NCBI RefSeq assembly: GCF_002159975.1
Contig: NZ_NFJR01000001.1
Location: forward strand, 558,001-622,000
Direction: 5' to 3'
Length of the DNA stretch: 64,000 nucleotides
Source: Barnesiella sp. An22
GTDB lineage: Bacteria; Bacteroidota; Bacteroidia; Bacteroidales; Barnesiellaceae
The notes under the pieces were generated by a model, which saw nothing but the letters and a program-made list of their open reading frames with translations, had not been told where the DNA came from and ran no database searches. Both the position numbers and the translations under genes were made by a program. Of this stretch, positions 28,706 to 56,563 are shown piece by piece (positions within the stretch are counted from its first letter, which is position 1; every line of letters begins with the position of its first letter).

Positions 28706-28709
28706 GGCT

Positions 28710-30482: not shown

Positions 30483-30488
30483 AAATAT

Positions 30489-33101: not shown

Positions 33102-33102
33102 A

Positions 33103-36034: not shown

Positions 36035-36535
36035 TTAAATACTTATCTTACATACAATCGGCTCGACCATAAAAGAGACTCTCTTTTCATACTGGCGACT
36101 AATCCCCAAACCTATATCGATAGCCCCGGTAATCACAACGTGCATTTCATACTTGGGCCGTTTATTCCCTACTTGATATTTCGAGGTACTCTCTTCAAGC
36201 TCAACTTTAACCTCGGGCTGTTGCAACCGTGGCTCATACGTCAGAATACTTTCCCGAATGCTCTCCTCACACTGTTTTCGAGAAATATTATCTCCTTTTG
36301 ATACTCCAGACATCAAGCCCAAATAATTGTTATTAAATTCCCGAACATTGATATTCGAAAACTCATGGTTCCAATATTCAAAGCCAAACTCAGGATCAGC
36401 GTCGAAAGAACCTTTAGGCGTAAATATTATCAAGTCCAATATGTTATCAATACTCATTTCAATATCTCCACCTTCTCGCTCAATTACGGGAGACTTATCA
36501 AATGCAATAGATAACGGGATATTGATAAAATTCAT
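36035..36535 (-). CDS. tssE: T6SS baseplate gp25-like protein TssE
   Basis: 166 aa, GPW/gp25 family. The pattern DNILDLIIFTPKGSFDADPEFGFEYWN is characteristic (split motif: LIIFTPKGSF, DADPEFGFE), as is CEESIRESILTYEPRL, which matches the conserved E-P-R strand of the gp25 fold. It joins the sheath to the baseplate wedges. Encoded between TssK and TssF. Confidence 0.9.
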   Translation of the reverse strand: MNFINIPLSIAFDKSPVIEREGGDIEMSIDNILDLIIFTPKGSFDADPEFGFEYWNHEFSNINVREFNNNYLGLMSGVSKGDNISRKQCEESIRESILTYEPRLQQPEVKVELEESTSKYQVGNKRPKYEMHVVITGAIDIGLGISRQYEKRVSFMVEPIVCKISI

Positions 36536-36550: not shown

Positions 36551-37531
36551 TTAAATTTCCTTCCTGTTTTTTCTCGGCTTCGGTAATTCCGGCTCCTTTA
36601 CGACTTTTTTTTCTTCAACAACGACAGGTACCTCTTCGACCATTTTAAAAACGGTCTCCATTTTTTGCGCTATCATACACAGCAACTCACACCCCTGCTC
36701 AATATCTTTATATACATTTCGCAAATCATACGGCTTCTGCATATACTGCAAAAATGGCTCCTGGTTCTCGAGATTGATGTGACAATCCAACCTGCAACCG
36801 AGTACAAATGCACTGACAAAATTCTGTACTTCGGCATATAACTGATTCGGAGTAAGTGTATCTCGCTCCTTATCCAGCCTTATTGCAACCCGACTTATTG
36901 CCAAACAAACCTCAGACAAGAGTATGCGGGCCTCACACCTATCCGCTTGAATACATTTGACCCAAATATCTTTGGCCAAGGATTGTATTCGTCCCAACTG
37001 ATTCATATACATCGGATGCGCCGAAAGATATAAACAAGGAGGAACAAAATCTATTTCATTCAATCTCCACCCATACTGATTTACGATACAACCAATCGGC
37101 AATGAATCGTCATCAATCTTACTGTTCACACCAAGGAGCTCAAATGTATATTTAGACTCGGAATACATCTCGTCGACTTCTCTCCACTCCCGTGCATACA
37201 TTTTTACAACAAGAAGATATGCGTCGGATTCATGATGTGCAGGAATCGCAATTCGAGTATCAAACGTATTTGAATAATTAGAATCAAACTCTATATCTAC
37301 AATTTTTCCACTACGTGTAACACCATGACAAGACAACGATGTTACCTCGAGAGTATTATTGTTGATATTGACCGATAACTCAAAAGGCTTAGATGTTGTA
37401 AAGAGCCCCAACCGACCGGCCGAGGTCAACAATGCAGCCATATGCAACGTGTCTTCATAGGCATTATCGGCGGCAATAAAGACCTCAGGACTAAGCCGCA
37501 TGCCTTTTTTCCAGGTTATTTTCCGAGACAT
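36551..37531 (-). CDS. tssK: T6SS baseplate-to-membrane adaptor TssK
   Basis: 326 aa. The N-terminus (ITWKKGMRLSPEVFIAADNAY) matches the TssK shoulder motif W-x-x-G-x-x-L-x-P-Q-H-F. A middle domain (GVTRSGKIVDIEF) and a C-terminal helical portion follow, and the last 25 residues are Lys/Pro-rich (EEKKVVKEPELPKPRKNRKE). It is shorter than proteobacterial TssK (about 440), consistent with the Bacteroidota subtype. TssK links the baseplate to the envelope complex; here that complex is non-standard, so its C-terminus should contact one of the membrane proteins described upstream. Confidence 0.84.
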   Translation of the reverse strand: MSRKITWKKGMRLSPEVFIAADNAYEDTLHMAALLTSAGRLGLFTTSKPFELSVNINNNTLEVTSLSCHGVTRSGKIVDIEFDSNYSNTFDTRIAIPAHHESDAYLLVVKMYAREWREVDEMYSESKYTFELLGVNSKIDDDSLPIGCIVNQYGWRLNEIDFVPPCLYLSAHPMYMNQLGRIQSLAKDIWVKCIQADRCEARILLSEVCLAISRVAIRLDKERDTLTPNQLYAEVQNFVSAFVLGCRLDCHINLENQEPFLQYMQKPYDLRNVYKDIEQGCELLCMIAQKMETVFKMVEEVPVVVEEKKVVKEPELPKPRKNRKEI

Positions 37532-37537: not shown

Positions 37538-38410
37538 TTATATATTTGTATTATAACTCAAGTAATTATAGCACATATCGTCCGATAATCTAACCGGCAA
37601 CGTATCGGTTGAAATATCGAACTTTATTTTCGATTCGATTCCGACAAAATAATCATTCAAAAAACGCTCAAATACACCGACCTCTTCGACAAAATCGAGA
37701 AAAGTCGAATCGCACATACTATCGTTCCAATAATGAATCTTATAGGTCGTTATCTCCTCGGGGAATTCATTACCCAAATAAACTTCGTCCTCACCATTCA
37801 AATAACAACTATAACGCGGCTGTCGATCGCATACAATCTCGTTGTTTTTCTGTAATTCCAATTGCAACCCTTCTTCATTAAAGATTTTCCGACACATCAA
37901 AGACAACAAGGTTTTATCGCCTCTTATCCTACTGCATTCCGGTATAAACGATTTGGCTTTAGTTACGAATCGGTTATGGCGGTATTCATCAGGCATATCA
38001 TCACAAAGGATATCGACTAAAACCTTATTGTCGGAATAGTCCCGGCACTCCATGTCCAGAACCTTACAGCTGAGGTCCAACAAAAACTCATCGAAAGGTC
38101 TAAAAAAAAGTCGGGCATTATCCTCTTCGGCCTGCTGCTCTTCACAAGCCTCATGGAATCGCTTCTCTCGCTCATTGGTCGGTATATTCTCAAATCTATC
38201 AATCGAATGAAACAGCCCCTCTGGAAGAATATCATACAAGCCATTACGACTTATCGAAATATCATAGCCTCCTTGCTCCTCAAAAATCAACTCCAAAACA
38301 TCACGATATGCCGTTCGCTTATGAGTACCACACAGCTTTATCTGTCGTTTCTCTTGGGAGAGATAATTCAATAAAATTTCTGCTTTTAAATCAGAAGGAA
38401 TATACATCAT
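37538..38410 (-). CDS. tssG: T6SS baseplate protein TssG (probable)
   Basis: 290 aa from the ATG at 38410, 1 base after the E1-like stop codon; the frame extends to 38458 but would overlap the previous gene. Length and operon position, next to TssK-TssE-TssF, indicate TssG. The sequence has RQIKLCGTHKRTAYRDVLELIFEE and a beta-rich C-terminus. I see no strong signature, since TssG is poorly conserved across phyla. Together with TssF it would form the baseplate wedge. Confidence 0.7.
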   Translation of the reverse strand: MMYIPSDLKAEILLNYLSQEKRQIKLCGTHKRTAYRDVLELIFEEQGGYDISISRNGLYDILPEGLFHSIDRFENIPTNEREKRFHEACEEQQAEEDNARLFFRPFDEFLLDLSCKVLDMECRDYSDNKVLVDILCDDMPDEYRHNRFVTKAKSFIPECSRIRGDKTLLSLMCRKIFNEEGLQLELQKNNEIVCDRQPRYSCYLNGEDEVYLGNEFPEEITTYKIHYWNDSMCDSTFLDFVEEVGVFERFLNDYFVGIESKIKFDISTDTLPVRLSDDMCYNYLSYNTNI

Positions 38411-38411: not shown

Positions 38412-39620
38412 CTACTCAAACAACTTCTTGTCGGCCGACAACTCCACAAAAAACTCACCTTTTTCTGTCGAGACTTTGAGGATATCGTAATGAGGGATAC
38501 CTATCTGTTTCAAAGTCAAATCGAGATATGGAAATGAGACATCGATATTTTCAAAGAATTTTTTATGGAAAATAGTTCTATAACTCAACATACGCATCTC
38601 TGTATTTCCGGCAATCACCTCGTCGAGTTTAGACTCTGGTATCCTCACTTCAAATTCCTTTTCGGGAGAGTCTGATATGATTGTTTCTATAAACTTATTA
38701 TTCATCAAGTTTATTTCTACCGTTCTACAATCACATATTTCCTTCAGTTCTATTATCGCCTCTTTGACCGACATATCGGCCGACAGATTTTCATCTGTAA
38801 CAACAGGGCCCCATTTCTCATGTGAAGGACAATTTTTTTTCCAAGAGGCAAGACGATATACATGAGTCGAATTTGTCAAGCCTTCATAATGAAACATTTT
38901 ACCTTGCAATGTAGTAAAAGGCAAATGCTCCGAATCGTAAGAGTCCAGATGGATCATCTTCATTGCCTCCTGCGACTGTATTGCCCCCACAATCGATGCA
39001 CTTATCGGGGTAGTTGCAACTCGTCCTTGTGAAGCCTGGGTTCTAACGACATCGGCACACCCGGTACGAAGCATGATAATATTGAACTCTTCCCGAGACA
39101 GACCACACTCATAACAATTTATTCCAGGCGTAAAAACCTTTACGACACCGGTCAGATTCTCTATACTGCCATCAATCCAAGTTTTACCAGCTCGCATGGC
39201 CATACGATTAAGCTGATAACGAGCCAACCTGCTATCCAAGCATCCAATAATAACATCGACCGACCGATACAAAGCCAATCCCACGTCCGAAAAGAGATTG
39301 CCTACGATAGGCACTACCTTGATTTGCGGATTGATCTCCATCGCCCGTTTAGCCACGACATCAGCTTTGAATCTATGCTCAAAGGCGTCTTCCTCCCTAA
39401 AGAGAACCGATCGGGTAAGGTTACTGATCTCTATACGGTCAAAATCGACAACAAAAATATGACCTACTCCAAACAGTGTTAAATCTTTAACGACTTCATT
39501 TCCCAATGCGCCGGCTCCTACGACCAGGACTCGAGCATCGCGTACTCGTTCTTTTTTAAACCAGGAGAGCAATGTGAATACACCCTCTCCCCACTCGTAT
39601 GTGTTCGATCTTGTAGTCAC
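38412..39620 (-). CDS. E1-like ubiquitin-activating enzyme (ThiF/UBA family) with C-terminal extension
   Basis: 402 aa. Rossmann adenylation domain: VLVVGAGALGNEVVKDL (GxGxxG about 35-40), VVDFDRIEISNLTRSVLF (Asp and N-L-x-R, 58-75), and a catalytic Asp in IIGCLDSRLARYQLN (about 129). CYEC (169-172) begins the zinc site, probably completed by C264/H267 (NCPSHE). The candidate thiolating Cys is C188 in LRTGCADVV, just before ATTPISASIVGAIQSQEAMK, where eukaryotic UBA3-type E1s place theirs. The last 130 residues are an extra domain of unknown fold. Expected reaction: adenylate the ubiquitin-like C-terminus, form an E1 thioester and pass it to the E2 encoded in the same operon. Not a stand-alone MoeB/ThiF: no molybdopterin or thiamine genes are nearby. 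Confidence 0.9.
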   Translation of the reverse strand: MTTRSNTYEWGEGVFTLLSWFKKERVRDARVLVVGAGALGNEVVKDLTLFGVGHIFVVDFDRIEISNLTRSVLFREEDAFEHRFKADVVAKRAMEINPQIKVVPIVGNLFSDVGLALYRSVDVIIGCLDSRLARYQLNRMAMRAGKTWIDGSIENLTGVVKVFTPGINCYECGLSREEFNIIMLRTGCADVVRTQASQGRVATTPISASIVGAIQSQEAMKMIHLDSYDSEHLPFTTLQGKMFHYEGLTNSTHVYRLASWKKNCPSHEKWGPVVTDENLSADMSVKEAIIELKEICDCRTVEINLMNNKFIETIISDSPEKEFEVRIPESKLDEVIAGNTEMRMLSYRTIFHKKFFENIDVSFPYLDLTLKQIGIPHYDILKVSTEKGEFFVELSADKKLFE

Positions 39621-39628
39621 GACTCTGT

Positions 39629-40357
39629 TTATTTAAGTACAAAGCCTACTTTCGCACCGATAAAAGCTCGTCCTGCGGCCATTTTATACACATCGCATCC
39701 GCCCGGTGTACAGTTGACTTTATATCGTCCATAAAAACCGATACGCATAATCATTGCCCCGACGGGTATATTCCCTCCCACTTCTACAACAGGAGCTATT
39801 AAAAAACCCGACTTTTTCACACCGTCGGCTCGACTTGCATCTATCGTGCTCCATTTCTCGGCATTGACCGTTGTATAAACCGTGGGTACCAACCCAACCG
39901 AACCATACAACGATGCATACTGATGGTTCAACTTTCCCAGTTCTATCTGCAATGGAACACCTATCTCCAACATGTTTCGCTTTAGCAAGTAGCCATAGTC
40001 GGTATGGGTAAGATCCAGCGAAAGACCGCCATTAAAATAGACATTCCCAATCAAATTTTTTTTCCAAACACCTTCGATTCCAAACTCTTTCGGGCGGTCT
40101 GGATTAAATCCAATCTGAGCCGATAACTGTATTGTACTCTCTACCGGAACCTCTTTATGGATTGAAATAATCGTAGTATCTCTTTGAAGTTCAAAAAAAT
40201 CGTACAAATCGACATTATCGCGCAACCTATATTTTACGTCTCCTTGTCCATGATAGTCAACAACATACGGACCCACATAAAAATGATCGATAGGAGTTTG
40301 TGCCATGCTTGCCATACCCCCGATGACAAGGGCTCCCAATAACAATACTTTTCTCAT
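39629..40357 (-). CDS. exported outer-membrane beta-barrel-like protein
   Basis: 242 aa from the ATG at 40357, which starts a signal peptide (MRKVLLLGALVIGGMASMAQ); an earlier start at 40402 would overlap the RING-protein gene and bury the signal. The mature part alternates polar and hydrophobic strands (GNVYFNGGLSLDLTHTDYGY; VPLQIELGKLNHQYASLYGS; AIFIGAKVGFVLK-like C-terminus), the look of an 8-10 strand barrel. It could be the outer-membrane component of this secretion system, taking the place of a lipoprotein in other T6SS. No specific family recognised. Confidence 0.68.
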   Translation of the reverse strand: MRKVLLLGALVIGGMASMAQTPIDHFYVGPYVVDYHGQGDVKYRLRDNVDLYDFFELQRDTTIISIHKEVPVESTIQLSAQIGFNPDRPKEFGIEGVWKKNLIGNVYFNGGLSLDLTHTDYGYLLKRNMLEIGVPLQIELGKLNHQYASLYGSVGLVPTVYTTVNAEKWSTIDASRADGVKKSGFLIAPVVEVGGNIPVGAMIMRIGFYGRYKVNCTPGGCDVYKMAAGRAFIGAKVGFVLK

Positions 40358-40388
40358 GTATTCTATAAATTTTAAATGATTATTCTGA

Positions 40389-42785
40389 TTAAACTTCTTC
40401 ATATTTAAAGATGGTATCGCCTATCTTGAAGGTGTCGCCGTTACTTAAAACAGCCGTTCGATTGATTGGCAACTCGACTCTTGTATTGTATAAAACACCT
40501 GTTGCCAATGGCTTAATCACTGGGAAACCTTTCTCATGATCGATATAAAGTTGTGCATGTTCTTTTGCCACTTTATTGCTTTTTTCCCAGTTCATTTGTA
40601 TTTCACACTCTCCTGTCATACCGATTGAGACTTTATTCCCACCGCCAGTTGCATTCATCCATTTATGGATAGGAATTCTCAACCCCGATTTCACGCCGTT
40701 TTGAATCACTAAGAAATACCGTTCGGCAATCATTCGCACCGTAATGAGCGAAGCTCCTAAACCGCCTCCATAGATAATAAAATCCAACAGCATGTTTATC
40801 CATTCGTAGCTACTGCTTGTAAACTTCGTAAAATAGAGGACCAAAAATCCTATTACGGCCGAGCATAGCCCTCCGATAAGAGCACTTCGAATCGGTATTG
40901 ACGATTTTATTGTCAATGCCAAAGAGACACTTATTGAAAATAATATATAGGCTGGCAGCGAACAATACCAGGGTATATAGGTCTTTCCCGTCCATGATAA
41001 TATCAGGCAAAACAAATCGGCTCCAATAGCAAATGCTATCATACCGATAAAAGCCGTAAGGACAGAAAGCCCTACAATCTTAAGCCATATTTGCCAATTC
41101 TTATTACGAATATCATCCTTGTACCTAAAGACCAACGAAATAAAGAATCCTAACAGGAGTCCTATCATCAAAAAAGAAGAGGTGCGCGTAACACAATCAT
41201 TGATAAGGAATGTTTGAGCATTGGTTTCATCAAAAACAAATCCAACAATCAACCGAGACAGCTCCGGGAATCCCCCCCGGCCACATGCTTCATAGATAAC
41301 CCAACTAATCAACCCGGCCAAAATCCCGGCTATAGTCTGTGAGCAATCTTTCAACGTACTCCATCTAAACAGATCGGCCCATTCTACATGGTTCTGAATT
41401 CCCGTTTTGCAGTTTTGTCCAAACTCAGCACACTTATATCCGTTCTCCTCCCAGCAATGCTTATGCATCCAGTGATTACATTTCGTTACAATAATTTGTC
41501 CCGGCCTCAATTCTTGTTTGCAGTAATGACAAATACGTCTTTGAACATTTTCTTCTGGCTCGTATCTCTTATAATACTTCGACTTGAATGTCATAAACCG
41601 GATATAGGGTACAATGACTTTCATAATGATGAAGAAAAATGCAAAAGCAAGTACCGCTACCAATATCGCTACCAGAAACTCGACCAATATACTTGTCGAA
41701 CTTTGTTCTCGCTCGGGCCACGGCCGCTCTGCCGATCCTATGGTAAACGTAGCGTCACCTACCATATTACGTCCCCACTTCGCACTATAATTGACATTGC
41801 CAGAATATATCTTATTCGGGTTAGCAATATAAGTCAACTCGTAGTCGTATGTAGCGTCTTCTATTACTTGCTCAAACGAAGAGAGTACATTCTCCATACT
41901 TGCCGACGGCAAGTATCGGCCCCGCAAGGAAGGAATAATGCGATTAGTACTATCCTTAGGCTGTGTAATACCGTCAAGCGTAATGTCTATGCTCGTATCT
42001 TCTCCATCGGCTGTATAGTAAAAAGCATATACGCGAGGCATTTCATCGGCATACTTAGACTGATAATCGGATACTTTTATATAATCCAACTCTTCATCAT
42101 CGGGCCGGCGGCTGCCTTCGGCAAAAATCATCAGAATATTCTTACCCGGATTCGTTGCCGCCCGAGAACAAATTAATGGATTTGGGGTATAATCTACCGA
42201 TTTCACCTCATCCATATACTCTGCTTGAGCCGGAGAAAACTCCGCTAACTTGGAATAGACACCACTATAAAAAGCCTTACCGGTAATCGTATCCAAGAAA
42301 GCCGATTCGATACGGTCGAAATTCTCGGTCGTTGCCTGTACACTATTGGTTACCCCATCGCCATAAAAAGAGATAAATACACTGGTATCTGCAGCAACTT
42401 CAATAAATTGTCTTATTGTATTCAATATTTGTTGCTTTCCATCTCTCGGAATACTCTGATCTAAGAGAATCGAAAATGTATATTCCTTGGGAATTCGCAC
42501 GCCAGTTCTGATTTGACGCACCTTCCTATCTTGAACTTCCTGGCCATCTTCATAAAAATAGAACATCTCATCGATTCTATCCGACGATACATTGGGTTGT
42601 CTTTTCCCATCATCCCCCAGTATATTAAAATAAATCTTTATCGAATCATTCCCCAGCCCATAATTATAGCTCCGATCACAAAACTGAATGCTTGAAACCA
42701 TAACTTCTTGGGCAAACATAGGAAAGCCCAATAGCACAACTCCTAACAACAGGAGCAATTTACTTATCTTTTTCTTCGTGTCCAT
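40389..42785 (-). CDS. multi-pass membrane protein with VWA-like, RING-H2-like and FHA-like domains; candidate E3 ligase
   Basis: 798 aa. Signal peptide 1-25; periplasmic VWA-like domain (about 95-330; YTFSILLDQSIP, with a degenerate MIDAS); membrane helix 366-392; cytoplasmic Cys/His finger at 419-459 with ligands C419, C422, C436, H438, H441, C444, C452, C459, i.e. the C-x2-C ... C-x-H-x2-H-x2-C ... C ... C order of RING-H2; then about six membrane helices (485-690); and an FHA-like domain (718-798; EHAQLYID, LSNGDTFKIGDTIFKY). The FHA lacks the usual GR Arg (Met723) and Ser (Ala740), so phosphothreonine binding is doubtful. In operon with a ubiquitin-like protein, E1, E2 and JAMM protease, a role as E3 is the simplest reading. 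The ATG overlaps the JAMM gene by 22 bases. Confidence 0.85.
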   Translation of the reverse strand: MDTKKKISKLLLLLGVVLLGFPMFAQEVMVSSIQFCDRSYNYGLGNDSIKIYFNILGDDGKRQPNVSSDRIDEMFYFYEDGQEVQDRKVRQIRTGVRIPKEYTFSILLDQSIPRDGKQQILNTIRQFIEVAADTSVFISFYGDGVTNSVQATTENFDRIESAFLDTITGKAFYSGVYSKLAEFSPAQAEYMDEVKSVDYTPNPLICSRAATNPGKNILMIFAEGSRRPDDEELDYIKVSDYQSKYADEMPRVYAFYYTADGEDTSIDITLDGITQPKDSTNRIIPSLRGRYLPSASMENVLSSFEQVIEDATYDYELTYIANPNKIYSGNVNYSAKWGRNMVGDATFTIGSAERPWPEREQSSTSILVEFLVAILVAVLAFAFFFIIMKVIVPYIRFMTFKSKYYKRYEPEENVQRRICHYCKQELRPGQIIVTKCNHWMHKHCWEENGYKCAEFGQNCKTGIQNHVEWADLFRWSTLKDCSQTIAGILAGLISWVIYEACGRGGFPELSRLIVGFVFDETNAQTFLINDCVTRTSSFLMIGLLLGFFISLVFRYKDDIRNKNWQIWLKIVGLSVLTAFIGMIAFAIGADLFCLILSWTGKTYIPWYCSLPAYILFSISVSLALTIKSSIPIRSALIGGLCSAVIGFLVLYFTKFTSSSYEWINMLLDFIIYGGGLGASLITVRMIAERYFLVIQNGVKSGLRIPIHKWMNATGGGNKVSIGMTGECEIQMNWEKSNKVAKEHAQLYIDHEKGFPVIKPLATGVLYNTRVELPINRTAVLSNGDTFKIGDTIFKYEEV

Positions 42786-44860
42786 ATTTTTAATTCATCA
42801 ATATTTACATCCCCGTAAAAACGCTCATCCATGACAACGTCGCCGTTAACAACAGGTATTGAAGTCAATGTCATTAACTTGGAAGAGTACACTAATACAA
42901 AATCTATATCCGCACAGATAGGAATAATCAGCCGTTGGATTGTCGGTAAACTCATATGCGTAATACTCACAAGACACCCTACAACTCCAGTAGCGGGTCT
43001 ATCATGAACTCTGACCAGACTCGACACTATATACTCTTTCCCATTTTCCGTATCAACCGGAAATCCGACAGCCCAACCGACCAGTCCCGTATTAGGCTCT
43101 ATGGTAATCTGTGTCAAGTCAATAATCGCATTGTTATTCACCTCGATCCCAAAGCATGAAGCTGCCCGTGCGTTGGCTGTTTTCAATATATTATAGAAAT
43201 TATCAGGAATAAAGGATTTACGCTCACTGCCCAATGCCCATTTGTACATCTCTTCCAAAGAGTACATCTTTAATAAATCGCCTTTCGAATTGATTGTTCC
43301 ATCTCCTCTAAATGTAAATATACCTAACTCCTGATTCGACGTCAAAATATCCACGACAAAAGCGACTAAGAAATTGGGATGTTGCGAATGTTTTAACTGC
43401 ATCTGCACATTACTATCCGAGTTACTGAAAAAGACCCCAAGCCCCGGATGGGAATGAATCCAACATGTCAGATCATATTGCAAATTGGTATCTTTTCTCA
43501 ATTTCCGAAGTTTTTCGGCAATGCGCAATTTTATTTTCCCCCCGAAATTCAACTCATACTCCTTAAATACAGCATCATCTCCAGGAAACACAACATACTC
43601 TAATGAAACATCGTAGGTATGCGTAGCCTCATCTTGTACCCAACGTCCCAACACCATACAGCCATCTTCTTTAGGGTTGTCGGCATTACGCAAATCTTCG
43701 GCATATAAATTGTACACATCTTTGATACATGTATTCTTTATATAGATGCGACGAACAGCCGAATCATTCGAAAAATCAGCCGAATCAATCATCAAATAAT
43801 CCGGGTTATTGACAACATCATCGAGACTCTGTTTTTTCAAAACAGATGTGGTCTTTCTACGGACAACAATCGCAGCATTCGCCTCTTCTTGCGTTTGATG
43901 TTCGGGAACTGACTTCCCCGAATTCTTACTTACTCGCTTCCCCTTTTTCCGCTTGTTTACGGCTATAATTATCCATATGACCAAAATCAATACAATTCCA
44001 CCGACAAGGCCATAATTAAGCAAATCATGCTTATTAAGGAAACTCTGTGAATCGGCATTATACACATCGGTCACCAAATCATTCAACTGGTTATAGGCAT
44101 CTTCACGATTTCGCAACCGATTATTCAATGTCTCAACGACATAGTTGATTAAAGTTTCCTGACCCGAAATCGTCGTGGTTTTCGAAATAGCAACAATTTC
44201 CTGTGCTACAATAGGAATTTCAATGCGCTTCTGATTAATCTCGGCTATCGAATTTTTCAGAAATTCATCTAAATCGTAATCTATTACAAATTGTTTCTTG
44301 TCTTGCGAAGCTAAAAGAGCCTGTGAAAAACGATCTACCTGATCAATATAGGCTTGAACAGATTCAATTCCAAAAAATTCATCCCTATTCATTCGATCCA
44401 GATAGCTCTCCGAAACTACCCCCTCTTGCTTTGACGGCTGACGTTCTTGTTTTTTGTTAACCCTCGCTTGCGATATGCGTGGCAACGACTCGGTTACCGT
44501 ATCGACACTCTCCTTCTCGATTTCTGACGAACTGACAGCTTCGACTTTAGGCGCAACATACCTCCACAGTAAGGCACCACTACTTCTCGGATAGTCAAAC
44601 CGGACAGACTGTCGGGCAATCTGATTAACCTGTGCACTCGACTCTCGATTAATTGTTTTCGATTCTTTATTATCAATATATAATATAACTCGTTTCGAAG
44701 ATTTATTCCAAATATTCAACACTTTGATGCTACTGTCAGCCTGAATCTCATAAGATATGGTAACATCGTTCTTTGAAACCTGCTTTCCCCAAACGGTCTC
44801 CGAACAAATACTAACCCATAGCAATAGTAGGATTAGTGCATATAACTGTTTACATTTCAT
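42764..44860 (-). CDS. membrane-anchored JAMM/MPN+ metalloprotease, candidate deubiquitinase
   Basis: 698 aa. Signal peptide (1-25), a small beta domain (about 30-105), a helical periplasmic region (about 150-280), membrane helix 284-302, a basic cytoplasmic linker and a JAB/MPN domain at about 365-545. The JAMM zinc motif is complete: KEDGCMVLG (Glu398) and WIHSHPGLGVFFSNSD (His469, His471, Ser479, Asp482). The remaining 150 residues form another domain of unknown kind. The family cleaves isopeptide bonds to ubiquitin-like modifiers or trims their C-termini. It should act at the inner face of the membrane on conjugates made by the E1/E2 of this operon. Being fused to a periplasmic domain, it is probably part of the secretion apparatus rather than a free enzyme. 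Confidence 0.9.
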   Translation of the reverse strand: MKCKQLYALILLLLWVSICSETVWGKQVSKNDVTISYEIQADSSIKVLNIWNKSSKRVILYIDNKESKTINRESSAQVNQIARQSVRFDYPRSSGALLWRYVAPKVEAVSSSEIEKESVDTVTESLPRISQARVNKKQERQPSKQEGVVSESYLDRMNRDEFFGIESVQAYIDQVDRFSQALLASQDKKQFVIDYDLDEFLKNSIAEINQKRIEIPIVAQEIVAISKTTTISGQETLINYVVETLNNRLRNREDAYNQLNDLVTDVYNADSQSFLNKHDLLNYGLVGGIVLILVIWIIIAVNKRKKGKRVSKNSGKSVPEHQTQEEANAAIVVRRKTTSVLKKQSLDDVVNNPDYLMIDSADFSNDSAVRRIYIKNTCIKDVYNLYAEDLRNADNPKEDGCMVLGRWVQDEATHTYDVSLEYVVFPGDDAVFKEYELNFGGKIKLRIAEKLRKLRKDTNLQYDLTCWIHSHPGLGVFFSNSDSNVQMQLKHSQHPNFLVAFVVDILTSNQELGIFTFRGDGTINSKGDLLKMYSLEEMYKWALGSERKSFIPDNFYNILKTANARAASCFGIEVNNNAIIDLTQITIEPNTGLVGWAVGFPVDTENGKEYIVSSLVRVHDRPATGVVGCLVSITHMSLPTIQRLIIPICADIDFVLVYSSKLMTLTSIPVVNGDVVMDERFYGDVNIDELKIWTRRKR

Positions 44861-46066
44861 CTATATAGATTTTCTATTTGATTTATTCTGCTTTTGAGAG
44901 ATATCCCGTATCTCTTTATATAATTTACTCTTCCCTGTATCAGTCATTCGATGTGTTTGATTACGCACACCTTCGCGTACTCTTCTGTTCGCTTCATTTT
45001 CGGCTTGCTTGGCCAAGGACTGTTGCATCTCCAGAATACTCCGTTGATTCTTCAAATCCCGAATATGTTTAAGTACCATATTCCCCCCAAAATATAAAGC
45101 TATCAGAATCACTCCACCTATAATCATCCAGACGGTTCGCTTTTGCTGTTTTGCTTCTTCGATTCTGGTCTCTTCTTCTTGTTTCTGTTGCCTGGCCTCT
45201 TCCTCTTGCTTCTGCTGGGCCAACCAGGCCTGCTCCTCGGCCTTAGCCGCCATATTATCGGCCTCTTGCTGCTCCTTCAACTCTTTTTCCTTAGCGGTAT
45301 ATTCAAGCAATACATCATTGATTTTCTCGATAACTTCCTGATTATCTATCCTGTTTTTCAACATCCGTAAGTTATAGACTTCCATTTGAAGTGTTTGAGA
45401 AAAGGGTAATTCATTTGCTGTAGCCAACAACTGACGAATCATATCCATACTACTTAATGCGTTTATAATATCACCATTATTCTCTTCCAATTCACTTGAC
45501 GAATGAATAGCAATATGTTCCACATGAGTACTCTTTTCGGGTGGTGTCCGATGACCTTTCGTCGTCTCGGCGATCTGAACCTTTAATGCTACAGTTCCTC
45601 GCCCTACAATTTTGTAAGTTTTTTTCTTTTCGTATACTGCTATAAAAACAGGAAATTCGACAGTCGAGTTCTTACTGCTCTTCTTACCAAACACAATAGG
45701 AGCCGATTGGCCCAAAATGTAAAAGCCCTCTTTATTTTTTTTGTAACTCAGATTGGCCGGCACCATAAATGTCGTGGGATTTAATCCACCCCATTCGACA
45801 TCGCCAAAGTCGCCCACTCGGTCGAAGATAACGACCTTTAGCCTATCCAAATCGCCCTTGCATAAGCGACGTAGATACTCCGAGGGAATAATGCGAGGAG
45901 ATTCCAATATCTTAAATGCCACATTACCATCCTCTTCAAAAACGCCGTAATTCAGTATTATCTTATCTTTTCGACTGGTATACAAAGTATCGGTAACCGA
46001 GGTCGCAAACAATACAGTCGAAGAGATAGCCCACAAAAAAAATACTACAAATACAGGGAAACGCAT
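44861..46066 (-). CDS. signal-peptide-bearing single-pass coiled-coil membrane protein
   Basis: 401 aa. Signal peptide (VVFFLWAISSTVLFATS), a beta-rich periplasmic domain of about 150 residues (IILNYGVFEEDGNVAF), a Glu/Gln/Lys-rich coiled coil (about 240-305; QKQEEEARQQKQEEETRIEE), a membrane helix (WMIIGGVILIALYFGG, about 308-325) and a basic cytoplasmic tail that may also coil. Shares its overall plan (signal peptide, beta domain, helices, late membrane span) with the adjacent JAMM protein. Likely a structural subunit of the envelope complex. No family recognised. Confidence 0.7.
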   Translation of the reverse strand: MRFPVFVVFFLWAISSTVLFATSVTDTLYTSRKDKIILNYGVFEEDGNVAFKILESPRIIPSEYLRRLCKGDLDRLKVVIFDRVGDFGDVEWGGLNPTTFMVPANLSYKKNKEGFYILGQSAPIVFGKKSSKNSTVEFPVFIAVYEKKKTYKIVGRGTVALKVQIAETTKGHRTPPEKSTHVEHIAIHSSSELEENNGDIINALSSMDMIRQLLATANELPFSQTLQMEVYNLRMLKNRIDNQEVIEKINDVLLEYTAKEKELKEQQEADNMAAKAEEQAWLAQQKQEEEARQQKQEEETRIEEAKQQKRTVWMIIGGVILIALYFGGNMVLKHIRDLKNQRSILEMQQSLAKQAENEANRRVREGVRNQTHRMTDTGKSKLYKEIRDISQKQNKSNRKSI

Positions 46067-46076
46067 AACTTCAATT

Positions 46077-47120
46077 TTAGAAATTGATTATTCGCTCATA
46101 ATAATCGTTGATTTTTCCACTATAAAAACTATCGCGTCCCCGTCTCCGATTCTGGTGATAACAATTATGCAACGCTCGAGCAGTCTTAACAGCTTCGTCT
46201 TTAGTGATACGCCCGGTATGCAATCGCTGATACGTATCGTCAAGTCTATGGTATATTTGCTCTGTACTCAAAGAGCAATAGCCACACCGGTGTACCCGTT
46301 TATGCTTGCCACAATCTGATACATACTCGTCAAGATTTACAGATTCGATTTCTTGCTTCAAACGTGTATATGCCTGATGCGGTAAATCTTGAGACATCCA
46401 CGGATTACTCTTGAAAATGCTGTCTATGACCAATATCATGCTATCCTTAATGGCCTGGTATGGTCTTTGCTGGTCAACTAATGAAGGCTTGTGCATTTTG
46501 TTTCCACAAAATTTCACATTTTTCAAACGTGCCTTAAAATCCGATATAGTCCGCTTCACACCCACATAGGTAGGGTCCAGTTCGCTCCAACCGTCTATTT
46601 CCAAAATGAATTTTATGTTATCTTCCCTCAATATTCGATATTTTGCCGAGCGTAAAAATCCCCTAGGAACATATTTCGCAATATAAAACGGAATAAGTAA
46701 CTCGGAAGGTTCCGACACCGAGCCTTCGAAAACAAACAGTTCCCGAGTTTCAGCCGGTTCTATTCGTTCAAAAATATTCTTTACATTCCGGCATCCCGAA
46801 ACAAACCGATGCCCTTTCTCGCCACCATAAGTTTTTTCAAACAGGACCTTAGGCTTACGTTTTTTAAGCATCTTCTCGTCTTGGGTACTATTAAAAAGCA
46901 AGACCGTCTGTGATGGCGTCAGGTTCTCTACCGAAACTTCCACTTGGGCCTGGTTATTATAAACGGTAGTAAAATGGAAGGTTACTGCCGCATATCCCAA
47001 ATCTACAGTCTGCGTTTCATGCCCCTGCCTGTCGAGTTTAACAAGAACCTCCTGATCGGCCCATGCAACTGATCCGGTGAATAGGACACAACATAGCAAC
47101 AATATAAACTTCCTTATCAT
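46077..47120 (-). CDS. periplasmic Cys-containing protein of unknown function
   Basis: 347 aa. Signal peptide (FILLLCCVLFTGSVAWA), a beta-sandwich-like N-terminal half (YAAVTFHFTTVYNNQAQVEV; VSVENLTPSQTVLLF) and a helical C-terminal half holding CGKHKRVHRCGYC (C270, C279, C282 with His between), which could bind a metal or form disulfides. No membrane helix after the signal, so periplasmic. Its ATG overlaps the stop codon of the E2 gene by 4 bases, so it is tightly coupled to the conjugation genes although on the other side of the membrane. Possibly an envelope component. Family unknown. Confidence 0.65.
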   Translation of the reverse strand: MIRKFILLLCCVLFTGSVAWADQEVLVKLDRQGHETQTVDLGYAAVTFHFTTVYNNQAQVEVSVENLTPSQTVLLFNSTQDEKMLKKRKPKVLFEKTYGGEKGHRFVSGCRNVKNIFERIEPAETRELFVFEGSVSEPSELLIPFYIAKYVPRGFLRSAKYRILREDNIKFILEIDGWSELDPTYVGVKRTISDFKARLKNVKFCGNKMHKPSLVDQQRPYQAIKDSMILVIDSIFKSNPWMSQDLPHQAYTRLKQEIESVNLDEYVSDCGKHKRVHRCGYCSLSTEQIYHRLDDTYQRLHTGRITKDEAVKTARALHNCYHQNRRRGRDSFYSGKINDYYERIINF

Positions 47121-47788
47121 ATATTTTTGGCAATAATTTTAGAACTTGTTTTCGTAATGCGCTCCTCTGGTTTTTCTCTCAAATTGCCTTTCTCGGACTC
47201 TCCTTCATCCGACATGCTTTGTCCAAAGCGTACCCATCCGTTCGGTTCACCTTCTTCTCGTACCCATTCGGCTACATTCTGGTCCTCGGGATAAGGATAA
47301 GTATTTTGTGCATGATACAGCTGATACTTCAAATACTGTTCAACACGAAGTACTAAATCTTTCAAGGAAGAAAGGACTCCCATCTCCTTAATAGTCAAGC
47401 ACACATGGCCTTTAAAACTACCCGAATAGCGAATATTTGGATGCCAAATATCGGTACGGAACGTAAATATGGGATTTCCATCGGCCGAAGGATAGTTATT
47501 GGGAAGCACAATACTCATTTTATGCAGATACCCGAAAACAGGCTCTCTCGGTATCGTGTTGCCCTTAACACCAACAATCGACTTCACTCTATACCAAATC
47601 TCATATTCGGTAGGCAATCCCATTACATTCTTACGCCTGATAATATACGAGATGGAAGGCTGACGTGGATTGTCGGCTGCTGCCTTCCGTTTTGCGCACA
47701 ACGAATCAAGTTCTTTCCACTCTTTCCAAAGGCGGGCATCTCGACCAGAAAGTTCTTTCTGATTAAACTTATTTATCGCTTCGTTCAT
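47117..47788 (-). CDS. E2-like ubiquitin-conjugating enzyme
   Basis: 223 aa, cytoplasmic (no signal). The UBC core spans about 18-165 and shows the family order: a helix (RLWKEWKELDSLC), strands (FGYLHKMSIVLPNNYP; PIFTFRTDIWHPNI with the conserved H-P-N at 116-118) and the active-site segment GHVCLTIKEMG with Cys130 at the E2 thioester position, followed by the crossing helices. YP-x(n)-P-x-F and HPNI...CL match eukaryotic E2s closely. A polar C-terminal extension of about 50 residues is added. Immediately downstream of the ubiquitin-like gene and 4 bases overlapped with the next gene. Expected to receive the modifier from the E1-like protein and transfer it to targets, with the RING protein as adaptor. 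Confidence 0.87.
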   Translation of the reverse strand: MNEAINKFNQKELSGRDARLWKEWKELDSLCAKRKAAADNPRQPSISYIIRRKNVMGLPTEYEIWYRVKSIVGVKGNTIPREPVFGYLHKMSIVLPNNYPSADGNPIFTFRTDIWHPNIRYSGSFKGHVCLTIKEMGVLSSLKDLVLRVEQYLKYQLYHAQNTYPYPEDQNVAEWVREEGEPNGWVRFGQSMSDEGESEKGNLREKPEERITKTSSKIIAKNI

Positions 47789-47809
47789 AATAAAATCGTT
47801 TATATTTTA

Positions 47810-48133
47810 TTACCCGGCAATAGGAACTGAAATAAGATGTAAATGATCTCCAGGTTGGATGTTGTAATCGATGAGAGCTTGCTCACGACCATCTACATCT
47901 TCAAACTCAAGAATCTTATCCTCTCCGTCATCCATAAATTGACCCAATAAATACTGAATCGGATTACCCCCATTATCCAATTTAGGCAATTCGAATACGG
48001 CAACAATACTCGCAATCTGATCGCGTATTGTTTTTTGAGGGTCTGTTACTTTCACCTCCACTTCTTCGTAAGGAGAACCATCGATAGTCAAATTGACGAT
48101 GAATTCATCGTCGTAGTCTTGCTTGTTTTCCAT
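47810..48133 (-). CDS. ubiquitin-like beta-grasp modifier protein
   Basis: 107 aa from ATG 48133 (MENKQDYDDEF); the frame starts with a GTG at 48139. A compact beta-grasp look: FIVNLTIDGSPYEEVEVKV, a helix (TIRDQIASIVAVFELP) and the ubiquitin-type ending ALIDYNIQPGDHLHLISV. The chain stops at VPIAG, so a C-terminal Gly is exposed without processing, as needed for E1 adenylation. An insert between helix and final strands (GQFMDDGEDKILEFEDVDGRE) makes it longer than ubiquitin. Directly followed by the E2 gene. Alternatively a YukD/EsaB-type secretion factor, but the company of E1, E2, RING and JAMM genes argues for a conjugated modifier. Confidence 0.82.
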   Translation of the reverse strand: MENKQDYDDEFIVNLTIDGSPYEEVEVKVTDPQKTIRDQIASIVAVFELPKLDNGGNPIQYLLGQFMDDGEDKILEFEDVDGREQALIDYNIQPGDHLHLISVPIAG

Positions 48134-48172: not shown

Positions 48173-49183
48173 TCACCATATCCAGGCCCCGTGAGGCTGG
48201 TCATAATTTTCTGAACGATAATCTTCAAACTTATTCTTAAAAACAATCATTTGATATGCCGTTGCGGGTATTACCTGAGGGACCTTAAGTCCATAGCGGA
48301 ATAAAGCCAATTCATACTTCTTTGCCTCGCCATCGATACGAATGATAAAATCGCTCTTCGTATCCCGATGAATTCCATAAAACCGATCGAAGATTTCGCA
48401 AATCTTCACCTCATCAAACCAAAAGTATGCACTATATTCACACTTGCCTACATGCCATTTAACAGCCAATCGTTTAGGCTTACCTGCCTCGTGATAATTC
48501 ATCAGCCTACCATCGTGAAGTTTATCGTAAGTCCCGTCATAAAGCGACTCCTCGCACCAATCAAGTTGAGGTCTTAACGGGTCCTCTTCTTTATATGGCT
48601 CCCATTTATCTCCATCCCATTTCTCCAACATCGGGAAGTATCGGTAGACAAACTGCTGCATATATTTTACAAACAAACTCTTCGGAGGGAGCCCCCCATG
48701 AAGTATATTTTGCTTAACATCATCAAATTTTTCAATACACTCTTCACAATAGTCGTTCAACGAGACTCCTTCGATCGATGGAGCAAATTGATCCATACCG
48801 ACATTTATCTCTTCCCCTATATAAGAATCTATATATTTACTTTTCAATGGGCCACAAACCCAGACAACAACCAATCCATATGGAGCCATCCCTATCACAA
48901 TATGTGTTACAGGATACTCCGAGATACATTCTCGTAAATACGAATCTCTCAACCGTTCTTCAACTGAATAAAACTTTTTTTCAACAACAGACAGATACAC
49001 TACATCAAGGATTTGGGGAACCGTGTCGTCTTCATCCTCCAAAATATGAGTAGAGAGTATTCTACCCCATTCTCCCTTAAACGGATATCTGTGAGGTATC
49101 TCTCTTACTTTATCCTTTGTATACAACAACCCAAAAAAGGTATCAACCGGATATAGAGTATGTGCCGACCCTGATATTTTCAT
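48173..49183 (-). CDS. probable immunity protein to the DUF2235 effector (DUF2931-like)
   Basis: 336 aa, no clear signal peptide. The segment VTHIVIGMAPYGLVVVWVCG resembles the DUF2931 family, which includes immunity-type proteins beside T6SS lipases. Trp/Tyr-rich, with a second domain (KWHVGKCEYSAYFWFDEVKI) after residue 230. Its ATG overlaps the effector stop codon by 4 bases, the usual arrangement for an effector-immunity pair. Assignment to DUF2931 is tentative, and the absence of a signal would be odd for protection against a periplasmic lipase, unless the effector acts from the cytoplasmic side. Confidence 0.55.
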   Translation of the reverse strand: MKISGSAHTLYPVDTFFGLLYTKDKVREIPHRYPFKGEWGRILSTHILEDEDDTVPQILDVVYLSVVEKKFYSVEERLRDSYLRECISEYPVTHIVIGMAPYGLVVVWVCGPLKSKYIDSYIGEEINVGMDQFAPSIEGVSLNDYCEECIEKFDDVKQNILHGGLPPKSLFVKYMQQFVYRYFPMLEKWDGDKWEPYKEEDPLRPQLDWCEESLYDGTYDKLHDGRLMNYHEAGKPKRLAVKWHVGKCEYSAYFWFDEVKICEIFDRFYGIHRDTKSDFIIRIDGEAKKYELALFRYGLKVPQVIPATAYQMIVFKNKFEDYRSENYDQPHGAWIW

Positions 49184-50877
49184 AATAAATCTATTAGAGT
49201 TGTTACAACCGGCTGTTCCGAAAATATTCCTTGATAAACCAATCGAGTAAGAATTGATTGCTCGTCCTGATCTTCTGAATTATATACATAAGGAGCATTT
49301 ACAAGCCATTGGTTCGATGAGAGTGTTGCCAAACGCTCATTGGCCGAATAATGTAAATATTTTCTTCTCAAATGAGCATAATCCGATGGAGATATTGCAA
49401 TACGGCCGCTCCTGCCACTCTGCATCTGAGTTTTTGCCTTATTATATACCTCCTCGACAATATTATCTGTCGGTATTGGGAACAGTTCGGTTCTAAAATT
49501 GAACATGTCACACCGTTCCTTTACGGCATCCTCAACCATCAATGCTAAAGAGACATTGCTATAACCATATTGCACATGTCGAAACATGCTGATATTAAAA
49601 GTCCCTTCGGTATAGTAATTTCCCAAATTTCCCGCAAGAGATTCATTGAACTCATCAACCTGTTTATCTTCGTCAATCCACCCCATTTCTATCAATGTAT
49701 CAACCGTTACGGGTTGTTGTGTGTCTGGATTTGCCGGATCTACGCAGATAAAGCGAAGATTTTGCCGTGTATTATCCTCATTTTCTCTTAAAAAGAAATT
49801 CATAGGAGTCAGCATCGTATTCTTCACTTTTTGCGAAACTATTTTTACCCCGGCAAAATCCACTTTATTGATAATTGCAGGTTCATCTCTTCCCATAGAT
49901 ATACCTCCTCCAATATCGGTATGACAACCCGGGAGAAACAATTCCAAACCATTAGAATGGACTGAACTCTCTATATCGATAATTGCGAAATTTTTTCTCA
50001 ATTCGTCCATCCCGCACAAGTGCACTACTCGCCGGCACATATCTGTCGCCCAAAGTCCATATTGGGCCACATTATCACTATGTACGACTCCAACGGATCC
50101 TACCGTATCAAAAATTCCCAGATATTCTACCTCTTTCGATTCTATATCTTTCTCGGGTTGCAATTTCTTGACAAACGAGTCACTATTTTTCTTAAGTTCC
50201 TCATTCCCGGATTTTTGAGCTATTTTATCACTATAAACGATATAATTAAATATTCTCGCAGCCGTTGCACCTCGACTAAAACCAAAGACATCGAAATGCA
50301 ACCTATATTTCTGACCATTTGGTTTCGATGACAAGATAAAATTAGATATAAAATCCAAAGCTTTACCTACTTTTGCCACAACGCCATTATCTCCTGCACC
50401 TAAAGCCAATCCTATGAAATCAGCTCCGGTACTGTCAAAATCCATATCACTCCCCGACCCTTCTACATACAACGAATAATGAGTCGCATCCGTCTTATAA
50501 AAAGACTCAAGTATGGCTACATTAGTATACGATACATTTTGAGAATTGCTATTTCTATACTTCCCATACACTTCGTCCGAAACCTTATCGTCCAATATTT
50601 CAGCAACCTCTCTATTCTCGGCTTCATCTTTCGATTTTGACGAAATTGCATATCTTTTCCTATCGTCTTGGAGTAGCTGCTCTTGACTCTGCTGATCCAC
50701 ATAGGCAAAGCCTTTGGCATTAACTTTACTTTCTTGGCGAAATCTCCTCCCTATGGCAGCCTGTACCTTATTGTTATTTGTTCCATCAAAGAAAATACCG
50801 ATATAAATATCTACAACAGTCATCTCCTGCAGCATCGACTCCTTCTCTATATCTTTTCCTCCAATGGTAGCACTCAT
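49180..50877 (-). CDS. DUF2235-type alpha/beta-hydrolase, T6SS lipase effector (Tle-like)
   Basis: 565 aa from ATG 50877; an in-frame TTG at 50883 is less likely. N-terminal DIYIGIFFDGTNNNK is the DUF2235 start motif; the nucleophile elbow is FDVFGFSRGATAARIF (GxSxG, Ser about 201), and an acid/His segment (LFLPGCHTDIGGGI) follows near residue 312. The family includes Tle1-type phospholipases delivered by T6SS to attack membranes of rival cells. It lies 8 bases after the PAAR-like gene and upstream of a putative immunity gene, in the VgrG cargo position. It has no signal peptide, as expected for T6SS cargo. Confidence 0.87.
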   Translation of the reverse strand: MSATIGGKDIEKESMLQEMTVVDIYIGIFFDGTNNNKVQAAIGRRFRQESKVNAKGFAYVDQQSQEQLLQDDRKRYAISSKSKDEAENREVAEILDDKVSDEVYGKYRNSNSQNVSYTNVAILESFYKTDATHYSLYVEGSGSDMDFDSTGADFIGLALGAGDNGVVAKVGKALDFISNFILSSKPNGQKYRLHFDVFGFSRGATAARIFNYIVYSDKIAQKSGNEELKKNSDSFVKKLQPEKDIESKEVEYLGIFDTVGSVGVVHSDNVAQYGLWATDMCRRVVHLCGMDELRKNFAIIDIESSVHSNGLELFLPGCHTDIGGGISMGRDEPAIINKVDFAGVKIVSQKVKNTMLTPMNFFLRENEDNTRQNLRFICVDPANPDTQQPVTVDTLIEMGWIDEDKQVDEFNESLAGNLGNYYTEGTFNISMFRHVQYGYSNVSLALMVEDAVKERCDMFNFRTELFPIPTDNIVEEVYNKAKTQMQSGRSGRIAISPSDYAHLRRKYLHYSANERLATLSSNQWLVNAPYVYNSEDQDEQSILTRLVYQGIFSEQPVVTTLIDLL

Positions 50878-50885
50878 CTCCAATC

Positions 50886-51263
50886 CTATTTCTGCCCATC
50901 AAATGTGATGGTAATCGTCCCTCCATATATGCACTTGAGAGTAGAGCTTTTCAATAAAGCAGGCTGTCCTTTCAAAATCACATCATTTTTTCCACCCATC
51001 CAGGGAAAAGGTGTGTTCGGCACACAAGGCATCGGGGTCAATTTGCCATGAGCCGCTGCGGTTGCTGCTCCAGTAGGCGGATAGGCCGTTGTATGACACC
51101 GACCAAACGGAGCTATATTTTTCAAAGACGTATGATCGCTGATATTGGCCTGTGGCTGCCCCGTCAACCAGACCGTTCTATCGGGAAATACAGTCAAGGT
51201 AGAGATTTTGTCTCCACAAGAACATTGTATCCGGGCCGTCGAACAAACATACGAATCGTCCAT
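50886..51263 (-). CDS. PAAR-like (DUF4280) spike-tip protein
   Basis: 125 aa. The CSCGDKISTLTVFPDR start, NIAPFGRCHTTAYPP and the repeated short strands (KNDVILKGQPALLKSSTLKC; GGTITITFDGQ) are typical of DUF4280 PAAR-like proteins. It forms the sharp tip on VgrG and recruits cargo, here the DUF2235 protein encoded next. Cys and His residues (C13, C15, H, C) could coordinate the zinc that stabilises the tip. Confidence 0.88.
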   Translation of the reverse strand: MDDSYVCSTARIQCSCGDKISTLTVFPDRTVWLTGQPQANISDHTSLKNIAPFGRCHTTAYPPTGAATAAAHGKLTPMPCVPNTPFPWMGGKNDVILKGQPALLKSSTLKCIYGGTITITFDGQK

Positions 51264-53619: not shown

Positions 53620-54105
53620 TTAGAAAGGCTTTATATTCTCGGCTATAGTACCCCGAATAAAATCTTCCAAATTGGACGACAACATTTCGACCGAATCATT
53701 CGTCCACGTATTCATGAACACCGCTGCATTCATGGTTCCTATTCGAATAATCTGTGCCGATATTTTAATAGTCGTATACATCAGTTTGCCGTCCTGATCA
53801 TTGAAGTAATCTTTCAATGTGGTACAATAGGCATTGGCAAAACTGACTGTTTTGTAGCTAGGCTTGTTGTCATTGGTATATATGCAGAATCGTAATATAC
53901 CTGCCTTAACCTCCGACTTATGAAACATCCAATTATAAAAGAACATATCGTCGTCATTTGTCGAAGGCATGGTAATCCAGATTTCACCCCCTTGAGGTCG
54001 CGATGACGGTTTACCTGTTTCATCGATCATTTGAGAGAATTCATAATGGCACTCCACCACACCATACGTTCTCCCTCCAATCTTTAGACTTCCATGTAAT
54101 GCCAT
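53620..54105 (-). CDS. second TssD/Hcp-family protein
   Basis: 161 aa. Shares the Hcp fold pattern with the preceding protein (GVVECHYEFSQMIDETGKPS; GGEIWITMPSTNDDDMFFYN; KTVSFANAYCTTLKDYF) but is longer by about 30 C-terminal residues (MLSSNLEDFIRGTIAENIKPF). Distinct from the main tube subunit; it could be a specialised tube ring next to VgrG or an effector-carrying Hcp. Preceded by a strong hairpin at 54119-54159 that may set its level against the major Hcp. Confidence 0.84.
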   Translation of the reverse strand: MALHGSLKIGGRTYGVVECHYEFSQMIDETGKPSSRPQGGEIWITMPSTNDDDMFFYNWMFHKSEVKAGILRFCIYTNDNKPSYKTVSFANAYCTTLKDYFNDQDGKLMYTTIKISAQIIRIGTMNAAVFMNTWTNDSVEMLSSNLEDFIRGTIAENIKPF

Positions 54106-56009: not shown

Positions 56010-56019
56010 AGACTTTGAA

Positions 56020-56475: not shown

Positions 56476-56563
56476 AACTTGTTGTTTTATCGTGTTAATA
56501 TTGATTTTTGGCTGATTTTTCTGAACTGTATCATTCGGCTTTCGAAAAAACCGCGATACGCTT

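Follow-up and report, generated by a model that had tools for sequence, protein, structure and literature searches.

A close-packed operon on the minus strand of a 64-kb stretch of Barnesiella sp. An22 (contig NZ_NFJR01000001.1, positions 558,001 to 622,000) combines the genes of a type VI secretion system (T6SS) with those for a ubiquitin-like (Ubl) protein, an E1, an E2, a membrane JAMM protease and a membrane protein having von Willebrand factor A (vWA), RING and FHA domains. The whole stretch is termed the window here; coordinates are positions within it, and the genes of the operon are on its minus strand. The operon occupies 34255-58807. From its upstream end at 58807 the genes are, in sequence, those for ClpV, TssB, TssC, two Hcp proteins, VgrG, a small protein, PAAR, a candidate Tle1-like effector, a DUF2931 protein, the Ubl, the E2, two proteins designated X and Y, the JAMM protease, the vWA-RING-FHA protein, a putative outer-membrane protein, the E1, TssG, TssK, TssE and TssF, with the gaps between genes from Ubl through TssG ranging from -22 to +21 bases. 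An earlier note, made from the letters alone, had described a Ubl, E1, E2, JAMM protease and RING-like membrane protein embedded in a T6SS operon, and sequence and family matches confirm that description. The Ubl-associated set is referred to below as the module.

The conjugation enzymes, the protease and the candidate ligase

The Ubl (47810..48133) has 107 residues and is encoded in mature form, ending in SVPIAG. Its family profile, and a model predicted from an alignment of 43 sequences, both match ubiquitin, i.e. a beta-grasp fold. Among the 74 Ubls found by profile, 73 have Gly at the C-terminus and the remaining one ends AG-GR. Inspection by eye gave VAG as the end of the Ubl at locus L111, and longer tails in Neolewinella (L108, ...VAG-SRIDR) and in genome G024 (...IIAG-YLVV); as these two extend past the Ala-Gly, the JAMM protease would have to cut them. 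The E2 (47117..47788), assigned by family match, has the HPN triplet at 116-118 and Cys130; its family alignment matches UBE2K (3.6e-7), and W115-H116-P117-N118, G127 and Cys130 are invariant in 80/80 relatives. The E1 (38412..39620), assigned by Pfam and alignment, has a ThiF-type adenylation domain together with Cys188, the pair Cys169/Cys172 and the pair Cys264/His267, of which Cys172, Cys188, Cys264 and His267 are invariant in 70/70 relatives. With single sequences Pfam matches were strong for the E1 only. None of the three proteins has a predicted transmembrane (TM) segment, and together they are predicted to be an intact Ubl conjugation cascade.

The JAMM protein (42764..44860), delineated by alignment and hydropathy, comprises an N-terminal part after a signal-like segment, a TM segment at 277-305 and a JAB/MPN+ protease domain with E398, H469, H471, S479 and D482. 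The signature HxHPx6SxxD is present in 54 of its 55 relatives, the exception being cut short, and the E, H, H, S and D residues of the metal site are invariant in the 14 domains aligned. The closest match of the profile is RPN11, a deubiquitinase (1.3e-11). Viral contigs scanned with the JAMM protein yielded no relatives.

From alignment, hydropathy and an AlphaFold model the E3 candidate (40389..42785) has, in order, a signal, the vWA domain (about 94-313), a TM segment, a RING-H2-like region (419-459), six further predicted TM segments and the FHA domain (688-798), its topology being drawn from hydropathy and the model. The vWA domain would be periplasmic, to judge the side from the signal. 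A RING-like two-zinc Cys/His pattern, with its last pair spaced C-x6-C, is present in 67/72 relatives. In structure comparisons (ligase alignment of 51 of the 72 sequences) there were matches to the FHA domain of DgcB, to integrin I domains for the vWA part and, weakly, to RING domains (0.03-0.09). Comparison of folds, which the earlier note had looked to for support, thus bears out the Ubl, vWA and FHA domains in the predicted models, and family matches do the same for the E2 (to UBE2K) and JAMM (to RPN11), with the RING correspondence to known structures being the weak element. In the FHA domain two residues to which we ascribe phosphothreonine binding are mostly absent, an Arg after the conserved Gly being present in 5/51 sequences and a Ser three before the His in 2/51. 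The vWA-RING-FHA protein has the features of an E3 ligase, with E2 binding and ligase activity being predicted.

X (46077..47120) has a signal-like N-terminal segment and has relatives at the same place in two of the gene orders considered below, A and B; since the X proteins of both order-A groups and of order B match one another at 87 to 99.6% probability, X at least belongs to the module throughout Bacteroidales. Y (44861..46066), with a signal-like N-terminus and a C-terminal TM segment (310-333), represents a protein recurring at this place. Y of the second order-A group matches that of order B (98.8%), and comparison of the window's Y group with the Y proteins of the other groups gave no match over 30%. 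No reliance is placed on a match between X and Y of the window's group that spans 43 columns only, nor on one of order B Y to a stretch of the ligase (95.9%), and in the X/Y comparison one row of the A2 set (L072) was wrongly cut. The putative outer-membrane protein encoded between the ligase and the E1 (39629..40402) was recognized by eye, without a Pfam hit, and its profile finds relatives in 29/80 loci.

Association with type VI secretion across Bacteroidota

Relatives of the module are uncommon, yet consistent in the company they keep. A search for the E2 in a sample of 393 Bacteroidales genomes gave 7 matches, of which 6 were counted; the other, in G262, was not considered a relative (5.3e-4, 30% identity over 96 residues with stops, and no other window gene on the contig). 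TssC is present in 18 of the 393, namely 5/6 of the E2 genomes vs 13/387 of the others (p = 6.6e-7). A broader scan, of GTDB, used two peptide patterns taken from the E2 alignment; of the 83 relatives it detected 80 were kept, giving 79 loci with a Bacteroidota title in every case; five are in genomes already met in the study sample (G392, G054, G185, G248 and G024), and two, L053 and L083, share one metagenome-assembled genome (MAG). With the window there are 80 loci. Ten profiles of T6SS core families, grown from the window proteins, were run on the fetched stretches: 73/80 match one or more of them and 71/80 have two or more families, and in none of the 73 is VgrG or Hcp the sole match. Among the remaining seven, L057 and L077 are on contigs of 5-7 kb (that of L057 being 6.7 kb), L111 has TssK, TssB, TssC, Hcp, VgrG and TssE just beyond the fetched stretch, L107 is presumed to be on the same contig as a TssR match, and the genomes of L073 and L077 contain TssC. 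Conservation over distant Bacteroidota, in these loci and in the sampled genomes, shows that the joining of the Ubl set to the T6SS is not a local accident. The interpretation in the earlier note, by which the modifier tags a T6SS component or effector, is supported in part, the tagging itself being a prediction. Record titles name Xylanibacter muris, Palleniella intestinalis, Caecibacteroides pullorum, Mediterranea massiliensis and Neolewinella xylanilytica among the carriers, strains that are presumably cultivable.

At least three gene orders are found among the loci. Order A, that of the window, is ClpV-B-C-Hcp-VgrG-PAAR-effector-Ubl-E2-X-Y-JAMM-ligase-(OM)-E1-TssG-K-E-F, in which OM denotes the putative outer-membrane protein; L092 has the same order minus JAMM. 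Order B, E1-TssG-K-E-F-Ubl-E2-X-Y-ligase, is also without JAMM and is found in Alistipes, Bacteroides mediterraneensis, Mediterranea, Parabacteroides, Prevotella and Muribaculaceae. Order C, of the Lewinella group, is VgrG-TssE-F-G-TssN-like-TssK-one more-E1-Ubl-E2-one envelope protein-JAMM-ligase. TssC is present in 18/19 genomes of orders B and C. With several gene orders, the link between module and T6SS has survived rearrangement. Trees of E1 (52 of 70 rows, 18 order-A rows having been omitted for size) and of TssG (65 module loci and 5 controls) contain the same main groups of loci. In the latter tree and in that of TssC (20 module loci and 6 controls), the T6SS core of L113 (G054) is nearer to the type having TssN, a component of the known Bacteroidota membrane complex TssNQOPR; nevertheless its module is present and TssN was not found. 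Two T6SS loci of the TssN kind, in G108 and G313, have no module in the fetched stretches.

The identity of the Ubl tail goes with the presence of the protease. Where both Ubl and ligase are available (67 loci), an Ala-Gly tail accompanies JAMM in 47 and AGGR accompanies it in 1, while Pro-Gly is found without JAMM in 18 and Ala-Gly without it in 1. A search with 14 JAMM domains as query covered the whole genomes of 15 of the 20 order B or L092-type loci without JAMM, and found none in 15/15; controls were positive in 4/4, two of these having contributed rows to the search alignment. The pairing ties the protease to the modifier. That the clade without JAMM keeps its conjugation enzymes suggests that conjugation, rather than removal, is what is retained.

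Secretion genes and neighbors in the window

The core set of the Bacteroidota subtype T6SSiii (TssB, C, D, E, F, G, I, K and ClpV) is complete in the window, with TssB, TssF and TssG recognized by position and relatives only. ClpV (56564..58807) matches ATPases of the ClpB/ClpA/ClpV type and is so named by context. TssC (54624..56030) has a family match at 1.1e-128, and TssK (36551..37531), a baseplate protein, matches TIGR03353 (1.9e-13). Family matches also identify VgrG (51588..53612), PAAR/DUF4280 (50886..51263) and the gp25-like TssE (36035..36535). Of the two genes for Hcp/TssD, that at 53620..54105 is assigned by family match and that at 54169..54573, for which an NCBIfam match is absent, by the likeness of its relatives. 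TssB (56020..56589) and the baseplate proteins TssG (37538..38410) and TssF (34255..36030) lack a curated family match, and are named from their position and because their families recur at TssN-type T6SS loci. With an ATG start for TssG its gap from E1 is 1 base; a longer open reading frame with GTG begins within E1. The candidate phospholipase effector of Tle1 type (49180..50883) has a match at 1.8e-17, and the DUF2931 protein (48173..49183), encoded between it and the Ubl, is recurrent near that place in relatives.

Directly before ClpV is a gene for a NusG-family protein (58823-59398), perhaps a specialized antiterminator, and upstream of that one for a tyrosine integrase (59783-60982). 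After TssF, at 27914-34248, are genes for a peptidoglycan-binding protein, a glucosaminidase-LysM protein, a Ser/Thr kinase, a WG-repeat protein and a PP2C phosphatase; G392 also has kinase, LysM and peptidoglycan-binding genes downstream of TssF. A type I restriction enzyme R-like protein (24590-27772, plus strand) adjoins the T6SS cluster. Elsewhere, the module at L042 is close to that of the window and is preceded, by eye, by FHA membrane proteins and a WG-repeat-like protein. In G024 (L012, L018; contig 685) the module is beside proteins that by eye resemble SrfB, SrfC and a subtilase, and beside a second JAMM. Another protein there has two additional Ubl-like domains, of which the second is followed by AG and a long extension.

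What the module may do

Retention of the module with T6SS genes across distant lineages, conservation of the active sites, the several gene orders and the agreement of the E1 and TssG trees together support a Bacteroidota T6SS subtype that probably has its own Ubl conjugation pathway, with envelope-anchored ligase and protease serving that T6SS and the Ubl being put on one of its components. In such a scheme E1 would activate the Ubl tail, and the RING of the ligase, on the cytoplasmic side of the inner membrane, would engage the charged E2. The vWA domain of the ligase would be periplasmic, as would X and Y; it could sense conditions there or have X, Y or a protein of the outer membrane as binding partner. 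The Ubl chemistry would take place at the cytoplasmic surface of the inner membrane, the docking site of a T6SS baseplate. The Ubl would then be attached to a T6SS component, whether of baseplate or envelope; the baseplate (TssG/K/E/F) seems likeliest given that its genes remain adjacent to that for E1 in the gene orders of Bacteroidales. Removal of the Ubl would fall to the membrane JAMM, and the outcome may be that assembly of the contractile tail is licensed, docked or stopped at a membrane site. Without JAMM the mark would be lasting, and the T6SS seems to require the conjugated state and not cycling.

Several considerations weigh against this interpretation. The T6SS of G264 is near to that of the window (TssC 54% identical) and has its other genes in the same order, with no module gene between PAAR/effector and TssG; E1, E2, Ubl, JAMM and ligase are all missing. 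The earlier note had held that T6SS loci of this kind would make the module a passenger. Such a locus does exist, and its tree positions suggest loss rather than original absence: the TssC tree places it as sister to the group of the window (95/94), and in the TssG tree it groups with 32 order-A loci, there on the longest branch (3.07) and with its placement unsure. Conversely, L042 and G024 (L079) have the module but no TssC could be found in either genome, nor in that of L057 with its 6.7 kb contig. In the E1 tree L042 is nested within order A, among loci that have a T6SS, so it may have lost its own or the MAG may be incomplete there; most of the loci are from MAGs. The RING pattern is absent in 5/72 ligase relatives, four of them from Saprospiria. 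A UFD-like domain suspected by eye at the C-terminus of E1 was not confirmed, the best match of a profile of 22 E1 C-termini to the PDB being 0.19, which is not significant. Also, the pairing of Ubl tail and JAMM may correspond in the trees to no more than one or two events. Because a T6SS is found without the module in G264, and the module with no TssC found in L042 and G024, the two are, to go by the genomes compared, separable; the module is nevertheless nearly always with a T6SS, and so is a tightly associated partner rather than an obligate part.

In Bacteroidales the module may also stand in for the membrane complex. Models for TssN and TssR were run on 31 genomes, 20 of which, by our selection, are Bacteroidales with both module and T6SS. 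Neither protein was found in 19/20 of these, the exception being G399, which has the two on a different contig, next to genes that match TssG and TssK; the models had no match in G000. TssN was detected in both positive controls and TssR in one of two, its model having missed TssN-positive G108, so that absence of TssR is weak evidence. Homology of the ligase to TssN is rejected, hhalign giving 1.2%. Comparison of the ligase, X, Y and the JAMM N-terminus with single sequences of TssO, TssP, TssQ and TssR, a weak test in which the P, O and Q names depend on gene order beside TssR and TssN, gave nothing over 30%. Three T6SS loci, in G253, G336 and G264, have neither TssN nor the module. Separately, their clusters (L026-L029 for G253 and G336, L024-L025 for G264) carry kinases, FHA and PP2C proteins, and perhaps represent a third Bacteroidales kind without a recognized membrane complex.

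With these results in mind, one extension of the favored interpretation can be put forward tentatively, as a minority prospect: a membrane-anchored Ubl machine would be the envelope platform, with ligase, JAMM, X and Y in place of TssNQOPR, and the contractile tail would be anchored by covalent attachment of the Ubl to the baseplate as its docking step, a lasting bond in the clade that lacks JAMM and a reversible one in the others. Alternatively the module could be primarily a membrane anchor, in which the vWA-RING-FHA protein, JAMM, X, Y and the putative outer-membrane protein replace TssNQOPR, and Ubl conjugation or binding assembles or gates it. The near-complete lack of TssN and TssR in the module-bearing Bacteroidales is what such replacement would lead one to expect, and the module offers a multi-TM protein with an outer-side vWA domain, plus further envelope proteins; according to PMC10781749, TssR has a vWA-like domain and TssN a ubiquitin-like domain for which a role in baseplate docking is proposed. 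Yet the homology comparisons above are negative, four Saprospiria module genomes (three of the Lewinella group and one of Saprospiraceae) have a TssN-like protein and a fifth has TssR, some T6SSs have neither TssN nor module, and the module occurs without detectable TssC in L042 and G024. Further, the TssR model has the shortcoming given above, and the mutual exclusion of TssN and E2 among TssC genomes of the order sample (0/5 vs 7/13) is not significant (p = 0.10). A module that is chiefly an anchor is accordingly regarded as unlikely.

Improbable in a greater degree is a phospho-switch, by which the downstream kinase (30489-31994) and PP2C phosphatase (27914-28705) would control the ligase via its FHA domain. 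In Pseudomonas, PpkA, PppA and Fha1 exert phospho-control of the T6SS, and kinase, phosphatase and a clear FHA fold do share one cluster in the window. Against that, the expected phosphothreonine-binding residues are mostly missing, as detailed above, and a Pkinase match is absent in 7/22 genomes with module and T6SS (G054, G399, G400, G402, G403, G407 and G416) and sub-threshold only in 2 more, so that a kinase switch does not look general. The notion of a passenger or defense island, an antiphage Ubl set of the Bil/Bub/CBASS kind parked in a T6SS operon, could draw on the E1, E2, Ubl and JAMM parts known from antiphage operons, on the parting of T6SS and module in G264, L042 and G024 and on the integrase gene near the window's T6SS, but is very improbable and is rejected as the principal explanation on the conserved interleaving with T6SS genes, kept in several orders across Bacteroidales and Saprospiria, while in PADLOC (2023), whose library was not checked for Bil/Bub models, the E1 alone among eight proteins matched, weakly, to CBASS E1-E2 (1.9e-15).

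Should conjugates be found on T6SS parts, dedicated modification of the T6SS would, to our knowledge, be without precedent as ubiquitin-like regulation of a secretion machine in bacteria, and might explain how these T6SSs work without the known membrane complex. The clades with and without JAMM would then provide a natural test of the purpose of deconjugation. As the gene clusters suggest, some gut and environmental Bacteroidota may control or build a contractile weapon by a type of tagging best known from eukaryotic cells.

Comparison with known systems

Bub and CBASS are antiphage systems, and the bacterial Ubl cascades known to us all defend against phage. In Bacteroidales and Saprospiria, by contrast, the cascade is tied to a contractile weapon related to phage tails, and ligase and protease both appear to span the inner membrane. 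Bil (BilABCD), Bub and CBASS Cap2/Cap3 likewise have E1, E2 and a JAMM protease; Bil and Bub also have a Ubl, and the tail ends in Gly or is cut to Gly; we know of none of them with a vWA-RING-FHA membrane ligase, with a TM segment on the protease or in a T6SS. Burroughs and colleagues in 2011 reportedly predicted RING-containing prokaryotic ubiquitin systems in which RING, HPN-type E2, JAB and a YukD-like Ubl are together, and so may have listed these enzymes earlier. TFIIH entries, where vWA and RING-like domains are in one chain, match the ligase, several from 98-100 to 457 (rmsd 22-27); the subunit is presumably p44/SSL1, which is nuclear and soluble, and the likeness is of domain content only. 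The review PMC11354881 describes Bil as an antiphage system whose E2 has a CEHH motif, unlike the HPN of the window's E2. Solved structures of the Ub-Rpn11 system of Caldiarchaeum (PMC6043591) are matched by the Ubl model and the JAMM profile, but that system is archaeal and without a T6SS.

With the Bacteroidota T6SSiii that has TssNQOPR (PMC10781749; GA1-3, PMC4714493) the operon shares ClpV, TssB, TssC, Hcp, VgrG and TssE, F, G and K; it differs in the addition of the Ubl pathway and in the lack of detected TssN and TssR in 19 of the 20 Bacteroidales module genomes. A literature search, largely without subscription papers, returned none tying an E1/E2 Ubl system to a T6SS in title, opening of abstract or available passages. 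The available portions of PMC10781749, PMC4714493, PMC1779556 (on prokaryotic Ubls), PMC3482391 and PMC11354881 do not describe the union of the two, the first of these mentioning a ubiquitin-like fold as a TssN domain only. What appears to be new, as read from the genes, is therefore the partnership: a T6SS subtype of a known kind and a Ubl system of a known kind, each with a new partner.

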